A stretch of 64,000 nt of DNA from Serratia liquefaciens ATCC 27592 (lineage in GTDB: Bacteria; Pseudomonadota; Gammaproteobacteria; Enterobacterales; Enterobacteriaceae). Where the stretch lies: NCBI RefSeq assembly GCF_000422085.1, contig NC_021741.1, positions 992,001 through 1,056,000 on the forward strand. Direction: 5' to 3'. Shown piece after piece: positions 13,587-49,603 of this stretch (positions are counted from its first letter, which is position 1; every line of letters begins with the position of its first letter). A program made the translations under genes and the position numbers. Below the pieces are notes generated by a model. The model saw only the letters and a program-made list of their open reading frames with translations. It searched no databases and had not been told where the DNA came from.

Positions 13587-13614
13587 TCCTTTCGCCAAGA
13601 ACAATATATTGATG

Positions 13615-13632
13615 GGGCCGGCTTGCCGGCCC
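13615..13632 (+). terminator. Hairpin 1 of the left yajR-flanking cassette (after yajQ)
   Basis: Stem GGGCCGGC (13615-13622) / GCCGGCCC (13625-13632) with a TT centre, 28 bases after the yajQ stop. It is followed only by TTAG, so the T-run is poor. The same 18-base palindrome recurs exactly at 13764-13781. Confidence 0.6.
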
Positions 13633-13638
13633 TTAGTC

Positions 13639-13715
13639 TGATGACAAACACCCGAAAAACGTGGTTTTCGGATGTTTGGGGTAAATCAGAAGATATAATC
13701 CTTTGTTTTTATTAG
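13639..13715 (+). repeat. Left copy of a 77-bp repeat (inverted relative to 15382-15457)
   Basis: By eye about 71 of 77 positions match the reverse complement of 15382-15457. Within it is the perfect dyad CCGAAAA-N6-TTTTCGG (13653-13672), the block GATGTTTGGGG, and a consensus -10 hexamer TATAAT (13694-13699). The dyad centre lies about 43 bases before the start predicted from the -10, a position typical for an activator or operator site. The copy is flanked on both sides by the same GC-rich hairpin. Confidence 0.85.
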
Positions 13716-13785
13716 CCCCAAGGTCAGGACTTTTAACTGCAAAGGACTTTGTCAGTAATCTGGGGGCCGGCTTGCCGGCCCTTTT
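13706..13785 (+). ncRNA. Candidate small RNA, left cassette
   Basis: A transcript starting 6-7 bases after TATAAT (13694-13699) and ending in the hairpin plus TTTT at 13764-13785 would be about 80 nt. No open reading frame of note is inside. Its counterpart is 15308-15391 on the minus strand; an ungapped comparison of the two bodies shows a shared start (TTTxTATTAG) and a shared CTTTGTC before the terminator, with divergence between. Prediction only: promoter, length and terminator are read from sequence, and no known sRNA family was recognised. Confidence 0.45.
13764..13785 (+). terminator. Hairpin 2 of the left yajR-flanking cassette
   Basis: The same palindrome as 13615-13632 (stem 13764-13771 / 13774-13781), here followed by TTTTCTTT, which makes it a good plus-strand terminator. 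It ends 3 bases before the yajR stop on the opposite strand. Confidence 0.75.
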
Positions 13786-13787
13786 CT

Positions 13788-15152
13788 TTACAGCGAATTC
13801 ACCAGCGCTTCCAACTGACCGCGGTTGGTTTGCTTGGTATCGACCTTTACGTAGGCGCTGCGCTCTTCCGGCACCACAATCGCTTCTGCTACACCCGGCT
13901 GGGCCTTCAGGCGGCTTTCCAACGCCGAGTCTTTCACTGCCAGTTCCGACAGCGTAATACGCAGGCTGCTCACGTACGGCGGTTCCTGCATGGTACTGCT
14001 GACCATAAACCAGATGGCGGCTAAAACTGCCCCGGCGATAAAGACCAATCCCGCGCCCTGTAGGCCGTACAGAAATCCTCCCAGGCTGCCGCCAATCGCC
14101 ACGCCGATAAACTGGCTGGTGGAGTAAACCCCCATGGCCGTGCCTTTATAGCCCGCCGGCGACTCTTTACTGATCAGGGAAGGCAGGATCGCTTCCATCA
14201 CGTTGAACGCCATAAAGAACAACTGAACGCCGGCAATAATGCCCCAAAGATGCGCGCCAGACAGCCACAGCAGCACTTCAGCACAGAACAATACCGCCAC
14301 GCAGCCCATAAACACCTGCTTCATGCGGCGCTTCTTTTCGGCATAAATGATAAACGGCACTACGGCGGCGAAAGACACCAGCATGGTGACCAGATAGACA
14401 ATCCAGTGTTCGCTGGGCGCCAAACCGGCTTTTTCCATCGCTAATGGCAGTGCCACGAAGCTGGACATCAACAAGATATGCAGGCACATGATGCCGAAAT
14501 TCAGTTTCAGCAGGCGGGAATTGCTCAACACCTTGCTGAAACTGCCACGGACTATACTGGATTCGCGGTTCAGCACGTGGCTGCTGGCGGAAGGCACGAC
14601 CGCCAGGGTGATGACGATACCGGCCAATGCCAGCACGGCAATCATCCAGAACAGCGCATGCAGGCCAAAAGCGTGGGTGACTATCGGGCCGACCACCATG
14701 GCGATGGCGAAGGTAATACCGAAGCTGACGCCGATGAATGCCATCGCTTTGGTACGGTTCTGTTCCCGGGTCAAATCAGACAGTAGTGCCATCACCGCTG
14801 CGGCGATAGCGCCGGAACCTTGCAATGCCCGGCCGAGGATCACCCCCCAGATGGAGTCGGTGGCGGCGGCGATCACGCTACCCAGCGCGAAGATCAACAG
14901 CCCGCCGACAATCAGCGGCTTGCGGCCGATGCGGTCGGAAATCAGGCCGAAGGGAATTTGGAACACCGCTTGCGCCAGGCCGTAAATGCCAATGGCGATA
15001 CCGATCAGCGTTTCGCTGGCGCCGTTCAACGCCATACCGTAGGTGGTCAGTACCGGCAGCACCATAAACATGCCGAGCATGCGCAGTGAGAATACCGTTC
15101 CTAATCCCCAGGTCGCCCGTCGTTCCAGCGGGGTCATTGCATTATCGTTCAT
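13788..15152 (-). CDS. yajR: MFS transporter YajR
   Basis: A 454-residue major facilitator with 12 predicted membrane helices and a cytoplasmic C-terminal ferredoxin-like YAM domain (about 388-454, including PPYVSSLRI and a terminal metal-binding-like fold). The MFS signature RIGRKPLIVGG lies between helices 2 and 3. The frame extends to 15173, but the ATG at 15152 has TGAGGT at good spacing and matches the E. coli start MNDxxMTP. Substrate is unknown; the family is a proposed proton-driven exporter. It is bracketed by two inverted repeat cassettes. Confidence 0.93.
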   Translation of the reverse strand: MNDNAMTPLERRATWGLGTVFSLRMLGMFMVLPVLTTYGMALNGASETLIGIAIGIYGLAQAVFQIPFGLISDRIGRKPLIVGGLLIFALGSVIAAATDSIWGVILGRALQGSGAIAAAVMALLSDLTREQNRTKAMAFIGVSFGITFAIAMVVGPIVTHAFGLHALFWMIAVLALAGIVITLAVVPSASSHVLNRESSIVRGSFSKVLSNSRLLKLNFGIMCLHILLMSSFVALPLAMEKAGLAPSEHWIVYLVTMLVSFAAVVPFIIYAEKKRRMKQVFMGCVAVLFCAEVLLWLSGAHLWGIIAGVQLFFMAFNVMEAILPSLISKESPAGYKGTAMGVYSTSQFIGVAIGGSLGGFLYGLQGAGLVFIAGAVLAAIWFMVSSTMQEPPYVSSLRITLSELAVKDSALESRLKAQPGVAEAIVVPEERSAYVKVDTKQTNRGQLEALVNSL

Positions 15153-15307
15153 TAAAACCTCATTAAAAGCCATTCCGTCAGGTTATCGGTGATAACGCCT
15201 GATGGGATAGCTTCTGTTAAAACTGCGTCATTTTAGTGTGAAGGGCAGGGGGGGTAAATCTAATGTTGTTTAGCAGATATTACAGTTCGTCGGTTTTTCT
15301 GCGAGAC

Positions 15308-15391
15308 AAATAAAATGGGCCGCTAAGCGGCCCATAGAGAGCGGACAAAGACCTCAGTAGCTAGTAGTAATGCATTGAGTACTAATAGAAA
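15308..15391 (-). ncRNA. Candidate small RNA, right cassette
   Basis: On the minus strand, TATAAT at 15403-15398 is followed by a predicted start near 15391. An approximately 75-80 nt transcript would end in the 10-bp hairpin 15335-15315 plus TTTTATT. It is the inverted counterpart of 13706-13785. It lies upstream of, and in the same direction as, yajR, so it could alternatively be a terminated leader of yajR. Computational reading only. Confidence 0.45.
15315..15335 (-). terminator. Hairpin of the right yajR-flanking cassette (yajR-proximal)
   Basis: Arms ATGGGCCGCT / AGCGGCCCAT around a single A, followed on the minus strand by TTTTATTTG. An identical 21-base palindrome occurs at 15463-15483. 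Confidence 0.7.
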
Positions 15392-15457
15392 CAAAGGATT
15401 ATATCTCTGCCTTGCCCCAAACATCCGAAAACCACGTTTTTCGGGTATTTGTCATCA
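15382..15457 (-). repeat. Right copy of the 77-bp repeat (inverted relative to 13639-13715)
   Basis: Reverse complement of the left copy with about six differences, keeping the CCGAAAA-N6-TTTTCGG dyad and TATAAT. It fills most of the 326-base gap between yajR and cyoE. The remaining part of that gap (15174-15314) holds the yajR promoter region with no further gene. Confidence 0.85.
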
Positions 15458-15462
15458 ATTTA

Positions 15463-15483
15463 ATGGGCCGCTAAGCGGCCCAT
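15463..15483 (-). terminator. Hairpin after cyoE (cyoE-proximal copy)
   Basis: The same 21-base palindrome as 15315-15335, located 16 bases after the cyoE stop. On the minus strand it is followed by TAAATT, a weak U-tract. It probably ends the cyo operon. Confidence 0.65.
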
Positions 15484-27876: not shown

Positions 27877-27908
27877 TTCGCCAGTCAAACCAGAAAGTTA
27901 ATGTCAAA

Positions 27909-27936
27909 ATGGGGGATTTTATCCCCCATTTCTTTT
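27909..27936 (+). terminator. Rho-independent terminator after clpX
   Basis: Stem ATGGGGGAT (27909-27917) / ATCCCCCAT (27921-27929) with a TTT loop and TTCTTTTT beyond. Confidence 0.85.
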
Positions 27937-27951
27937 TCCTGCATTCTTGCC

Positions 27952-27979
27952 GTTGAATGTAAGAGATTCATCCCCATAT
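27952..27979 (+). promoter_or_regulatory. Heat-shock (sigma32) promoter of lon
   Basis: GTTGAA (27952-27957), a 14-base spacer and CCCCATAT (27972-27979). This matches the sigma32 pattern CTTGAA-N13/15-CCCCATNT and the known E. coli lon promoter. About 90 bases upstream of the lon start. Confidence 0.85.
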
Positions 27980-28070
27980 ACTCATTAACCAGATTTTATG
28001 AAACGTTTGATGCTTGCGTCTCATGAGATTCCCCTCAACCTGGCGGAAGTTAAACTTAAGAGAGAGCTCT

Positions 28071-49490: not shown

Positions 49491-49603
49491 GGGGGCCCTG
49501 TTGGTTCTCCCGCAACACTAACTTGTGAACTCGGTCAGATCCGGAAGGAAGCAGCCGCAGCAGGTGACGTGTGTGCCGGGATGTAGCTGGCAGGGCCTCC
49601 ACC
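49491..49603 (+). ncRNA. ffs: 4.5S RNA, signal recognition particle RNA
   Basis: About 113 nt, closely matching E. coli 4.5S RNA. It begins GGGGGCCCTGTTGG, carries the apical tetraloop region TCCGGAAGGAAGCAGCC and ends GGGATGTAGCTGGCAGGGCC. The two ends pair into the long SRP stem. It binds Ffh for membrane targeting of nascent proteins. Location next to atl/ybaZ is the same as in E. coli. Exact ends are approximate by a few bases. Confidence 0.95.

Follow-up and report, generated by a model that had tools for sequence, protein, structure and literature searches.

The described systems closest to the elements reported here belong to the IS1182 family of insertion sequences (IS). IS1272 and TnSha1 of staphylococci are of the same transposase family and insert at hairpins, several of which are confirmed terminators, but in the passages of the two papers drawn on here they delete or replace the stem-loop without target duplication (PMC4923244, PMC5678879), whereas the elements of our locus duplicate the hairpin. 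Furi et al. 2016 describe loss of the hairpin with no duplication and refer to Siguier 2015 on the targeting of palindromes by the family (PMC4923244), and Wan et al. 2017 draw duplication of the whole hairpin as a hypothetical pathway (b in their figure 13) for IS1272, an element that removes the stem-loop (PMC5678879). More generally, IS1182-related transposases are described as acting with or without target duplication or deletion and as possibly recognising target structure (PMC12056078), and a table lists ISPse1 with the value 4 (PMC3281130). Short non-autonomous MITEs are also known in the family: those of ISMac2 in Methanosarcina acetivorans measure 160 and 169 bp and occur in 14 and 7 copies; they are archaeal, and the main text of that paper does not use the word terminator (PMC3852290). 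REP and other short palindromic repeats are hairpin-forming, intergenic and short, as are the elements of our locus (PMC3733652, PMC10969869). The parts of the open-access literature that were searched yielded no report in which a whole terminator hairpin was observed to be duplicated. Target duplications in ISfinder for IS1182 run from 0 to 60 bp, so its curators may already hold such repeats.

The window, by which we mean the whole stretch of 64,000 nucleotides of Serratia liquefaciens ATCC 27592 that was analysed, holds two cassettes on either side of yajR. A preliminary description had noted near-identical inverted blocks flanking this gene, and they are present where it placed them. Its account of their make-up also stands: the aligned conserved parts differ at about six positions, the bodies are diverged and of equal length, both copies carry TATAAT, and the two hairpins of each cassette are exact copies of one another while left and right hairpins differ. 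The dyad it had pointed out is far from a chance pattern: the window has two occurrences of CCGAAAA-N4-8-TTTTCGG, and 100 dinucleotide shuffles of it average 0.01. The emphasis shifts in one respect: the unit is not the 77-nt block by itself but the whole 127 nt with a flanking hairpin on each side. The left hairpin (GGGGCCGGCTTGCCGGCCCTT, 13614-13634) recurs exactly at 13763-13783, a spacing of 149, and the right hairpin (ATGGGCCGCTAAGCGGCCCAT, 15315-15335) recurs at 15463-15483, a spacing of 148; the repeats are identical over 21 nt at the left locus and 22 nt at the right. The A at 13635 is possibly part of the left element. We refer to the 127-nt element as family A, and the features of the locus are as follows.

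13614..13634, + strand: left copy of the yajQ/yajR terminator hairpin, forming half of the target duplication; present as a single copy at the orthologous empty site of genome G029
13636..13762, + strand: family-A element (probable MITE), left copy, 127 nt; found at 2 of 29 readable orthologous sites
13645..13678, + strand: subterminal hairpin CAAACACCCGAAAA-ACGTGG-TTTTCGGATGTTTG, holding the dyad at 13652-13671; covariation over 40 copies; autonomous IS ends likewise have subterminal hairpins
13745..13762, + strand: right terminal inverted repeat GACTTTGTCAGTAATCTG, resembling the IRL end of the IS
13763..13783, + strand: terminator hairpin, second copy of the left target duplication, adjoining the 3′ end of the convergent yajR
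13788..15173, - strand: yajR, the host gene between both insertions (open reading frame only, named after the earlier reader)
15315..15335, - strand: inner copy of the terminator hairpin in the DNA between cyoE and yajR
15336..15462, - strand: family-A element (probable MITE), right copy, 127 nt; in 3 of 30 genomes of the genus, with a single hairpin and no element in 27 of 30
15463..15483, - strand: terminator hairpin of cyoE-yajR, outer copy, adjoining the 3′ end of cyoE

Our reading, to which we give a probability of roughly 0.9, is that each cassette is a miniature, transposase-less derivative (MITE) of an IS1182-family insertion sequence. Of two readings offered in the preliminary description, the one supported is that of a short mobile repeat which doubles a terminator as it inserts; the support comes from dispersed copies, hairpin pairs specific to each locus, empty sites, and similar ends on autonomous IS. 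The accompanying statement that no named family could be recognised gives way, as the known kind can be named: a MITE of the IS1182 family.

Family A is short, without a transposase, multi-copy and dispersed, as a MITE should be. There are 11 copies in the window's genome. We looked for others in 60 genomes, 30 of the genus Serratia and 30 of other genera; strong matches (best E 8e-30 or lower) occur in 11 of the 30 Serratia genomes, the window's own included, while the other 19 have none or chance-level matches only (E >= 0.09), and the 30 genomes of other genera give chance-level matches at most (lowest E 0.03). Plasmid and phage collections contain no match to family A. A scan of contigs for the exact 20-mer core identifies like elements in Cedecea, Dryocola and the isolate RIT693 (80 of 86 stretches listed). 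In the window's genome, nine copies lie outside the window; for eight of them a long open frame has its 3′ end no more than 55 nt away, and five of the nine sit between convergent long frames, these being stop-to-stop open frames and not annotated genes.

The same exact 20-mer (CCGAAAAACGTGGTTTTCGG) is also found in multi-hairpin repeats of Deltaproteobacteria, Desulfovibrio, and gammaproteobacterial and clostridial MAGs (L086, L098, L123, L140 and others). Outside Enterobacterales there are 57 copies at 56 loci among the matches listed, a few perhaps due to chance, where base-count arithmetic predicts about 0.5. The ends of these repeats look unlike those of family A, and Rfam gives nothing above the gathering score at seven loci of other phyla save one tRNA. 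We considered the 20-mer as a marker of one mobile family across phyla and dropped it; a flanking direct repeat is present at 0 of the 45 testable copies among the 57.

Flanking duplication is the rule for family A. The preliminary description had named multiple copies without flanking hairpin duplication as the observation that would count against a mobile repeat of this kind; on looking, we found a direct repeat across the flanks (score >= 14) at 46 of the 52 copies fetched; when flanks of different copies that are not orthologous were paired as a control, 17 of 1500 pairings reached this score. In form the repeat is a stem-loop resembling a terminator, mostly with A before it and T's after it, and is 19-25 nt long at 31 of 37 distinct sites. 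Nine of the 11 copies from other Enterobacterales show the same hairpin duplication. Repeat length correlates with hairpin length (r 0.69), a value that is partly circular, the hairpin having been sought within the repeat. The six copies without a clear duplication include L056 and L064, where the right hairpin is missing, L044, which has two unlike hairpins, and diverged or indel-bearing copies.

Comparison of orthologous sites gives both states of the locus, the product being X-hairpin-element-hairpin-Y and the empty sites X-hairpin-Y. Between cyoE and yajR, three of the 30 genus genomes have a family-A element with two hairpins, and the remaining 27 have one hairpin and lack the element. 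Between yajQ and yajR, readable in 29 of the 30 genomes, a single hairpin is seen in 23, family A in two, a second family (B, below) inside the same kind of doubled hairpin in three, and a degenerate inverted B-like copy in one. Occupied and empty orthologous sites are thus both at hand, as looked for in a MITE. In G029 the right-hand insertion is filled and the left site is empty, and therefore the “twins” of the window are separate insertions, not a designed pair. The sole unreadable yajQ-yajR site is that of G028, in which the matches to the two genes lie about 1.5 kb apart (G028:C1:1076584-1078074), so that something larger occupies the site. In four genomes (G010, G026, G028 and G025; L346, L353, L354 and L355) the cyoE-yajR intergenic region exceeds its usual length by about 30-125 bp, has one hairpin and lacks the family-A core.

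These separate insertions bear on the other reading in the preliminary description, namely twin regulated small RNA genes in which a TATAAT promoter and an operator dyad control an RNA of about 80 nt ended by the second hairpin. Both window copies do have TATAAT and a T-tailed hairpin downstream, and CATAAT is found as the -10 hexamer in 18 of 40 aligned copies; however, TATAAT itself is present in only five of the 40, so that the promoter is not conserved among copies, and no -35 box was recognised by eye. When the window's genome is compared with G011, the left element agrees more closely (123 of 125 aligned positions) than do yajQ (268/287) and the 3′ part of yajR (298/313), a small sign in favour of this reading, but the right element (126/127 between genomes) is no more alike than the adjoining intergenic DNA (140 or 141 of 141). 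Rfam yields nothing above the gathering score at the cassettes, the nearest being a weak match of the right copy to MicF (24.9 bits against a gathering score of 79, E 0.9). The supposed operator is a stem that covaries, and its position corresponds to that of the subterminal hairpin of the IS. Taken with the separate insertions, these results make twin small RNAs sharing an operator very improbable, though transcription of single family-A copies is possible. Elsewhere in the window, sraA (27896-27991, - strand) and the bacterial small SRP RNA (49499-49595, + strand) score above the Rfam gathering score and are ordinary.

The link to the IS1182 family comes from autonomous elements with similar ends. 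Of 394 genomes of the order, 24 contain the end pattern in exact form, and in G133 and G260 a pair of ends separated by 1,595 bp encloses one long ORF. The ORF at L293 is an IS1182-family transposase (NF033551 at 493 bits, cut-off 270; PF05598 and PF13751); loci L296 and L298-L311 were read for their ends and left out of the scoring of duplications. In G133, each of the four complete IS copies is bracketed by an exact hairpin duplication of 21-23 bp; in G260, the hairpins to the left and right of the only complete copy are unlike. The left end of this G260 copy and the right end of another copy bound a segment of 5,953 bp that holds other genes (L292:972-6924). An exact hairpin duplication of 23 bp flanks this segment, as if a composite transposon had moved as a whole.

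A similar picture emerges for plasmid copies of IS with these or similar ends, where 11 of 14 lie in an exact 16-28 bp duplication that is a hairpin. The plasmid IS copies examined in all were picked by hand and not at random (11 of 30 listed, then three more of these and five of 60 listed); the 14 come from Vibrionaceae, Enterobacterales, Rhizobiales and one member of the Bacillaceae (ISBspe1). The three exceptions are L377 and L378 (Salmonella and Providencia, in the order listed), with unlike hairpins on each side, and L376, which abuts an IS1182 copy. At L376 the element joins the second IS1182 copy at the subterminal hairpin of that copy, as if the end of a relative had served as target. 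Altogether an exact hairpin duplication of 16-28 bp flanks 15 of the 19 complete IS copies examined, the same target product as at 46 of 52 MITE copies. Five distant IS1182 elements (ISEfa7, ISCfr1 and three more, 26-43% identity), whose exact ends were not located, show the hairpin duplication in none. We take the duplication to be a trait of a subgroup of IS1182, because these distant members lack it, IS1272 deletes the hairpin and ISPse1 is tabulated at 4. The IS of this subgroup, those with CAGACTGCTGACAAA ends, have terminal inverted repeats, subterminal hairpins and whole-hairpin target duplication as do the window elements, and differ in carrying a transposase, which the 127-bp window elements lack. 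Plasmid records annotate them as IS1182 family only; ISBspe1, with somewhat different ends, is the nearest named element among those compared.

No transposase of the IS1182 family scores above the cut-off in any of the 30 genus genomes, four of which contain weak fragments of 17-38 bits. Mobilisation by such a transposase is therefore something we infer, and the family is probably immobile in these genomes at present. A full-length partner in the same genome was not found; a MITE need not have one, and the partner may have been lost.

The ends themselves connect the short and the full-length elements. The IS has two distinct ends, IRL (CAGACTGCTGACAAAGTCCT in L374) and IRR (CAGATTGATGACAAACCCC in L373), and a subterminal hairpin comes after either one. 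Compared with the leading 20 bases of the L374 IRL, the right end of family A agrees at 17-20 positions in 25 of 40 copies, and at five or fewer in three. In 23 of the 40 the left end is TGACAAACAC, which resembles the TGACAAACCC of the L373 IRR but is short; the IRL of the Rhizobium element also reads TGACAAAC, so the left end is assigned less firmly. Terminal inverted repeats are thus common to the MITE and the full-length IS1182 element, with the left one shorter and less specific. The dyad of the preliminary description occupies the place of the subterminal hairpin of the IS. In the family-A alignment, which comprises 40 of the 52 copies after 12 were left out as orthologous (two in L047, and L057-L062, L064, L065, L072 and L078), five pairs of this stem have changed on both sides, and the covariation of the two helices together is reached by 0 of 500 shuffles, although the structure was drawn from the sequences tested, which favours covariation. 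When the partner columns are slid by one to three positions every measure of covariation falls. Within the stem, the pair of columns 18-40 is unpaired in 24 of the 40 copies.

Family A is not alone in having such ends. A scan for the right end, allowing up to two mismatches, gives 36 sites in the window's genome compared to six for the reversed control, family-A copies being counted in. Besides A there are at least three families (B, C and D) with unlike interiors and like ends, TCAGAC.GCTGACAAA and TTTGTCA....TCTGA. The plasmid collection has no match to family C, and the loop of family D (AAAAGCGTGGTTTT) is related to the 20-mer CCGAAAAACGTGGTTTTCGG. Among B-D, a doubled hairpin scoring at least 13 is found at six of the 12 loci with both ends located, two of which (L245 and L248) are orthologous; the count leaves out the single-ended L236, L241, L243, L244, L247 and L251 and the three orthologous yajQ-yajR copies of B, where the hairpin is doubled by eye. 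There is no doubled hairpin at L233, L235, L239 and L246. At L232 the changes that separate the two hairpins are paired, which fits an old duplication of which both copies were retained as terminators.

Such families are also relevant to a different route of spread, in which replication would switch template between terminator hairpins, with a hairpin likewise left to either side. Palindromes can promote template switching, and a few left flanks have extra homology to the end of the element: at L042, L055, L061 and L067 the flank before the hairpin holds a stretch like the element's right end (TCAGCCATAAA, GTCAGCCGTCT). This stretch is perhaps what remains of an older element at the same terminator. 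Template switching does not readily account for families with unrelated interiors having common ends, and ends like those of transposase-bearing IS, and we give this route little credence. A second alternative is that the elements were moved by a Y1/RAYT-type transposase in the manner of REP. They are short, hairpin-bearing intergenic repeats, and Y1 matches are present in four of the 11 element-bearing genus genomes (G011, G019, G022 and G029); the REP partner, Y1_Tnp (PF01797), is nevertheless missing from the window's genome and from seven of the 11, and both ends and products resemble IS1182 elements instead, so that this is the least plausible of the alternatives, with next to no chance of being right.

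Transposition by an IS1182 enzyme would give the product seen if 3′ ends were joined at the 5′ feet of an extruded stem-loop, with repair after joining producing a duplication that matches the hairpin in length. Each of the two neighbouring genes would then retain a terminator after insertion. Since both neighbours keep one, whole-hairpin duplication may make insertion nearly cost-free and explain the spread of the short derivatives through gene ends, a proposal that we regard as somewhat favoured.

The IS and MITE copies, together with the filled and empty sites, provide natural evidence, drawn from many loci, for duplication of an entire hairpin by a DDE transposase, with structure defining what is duplicated, and how IS1182 transposases see the hairpin becomes a directly testable question. 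They also carry a warning about cassettes that look “sRNA-like”: where a -10 box and a hairpin occur together at a terminator, the cassette may be what is left of a transposon. For the elements themselves, a terminator left on each side offers a simple reason why they build up at gene ends.
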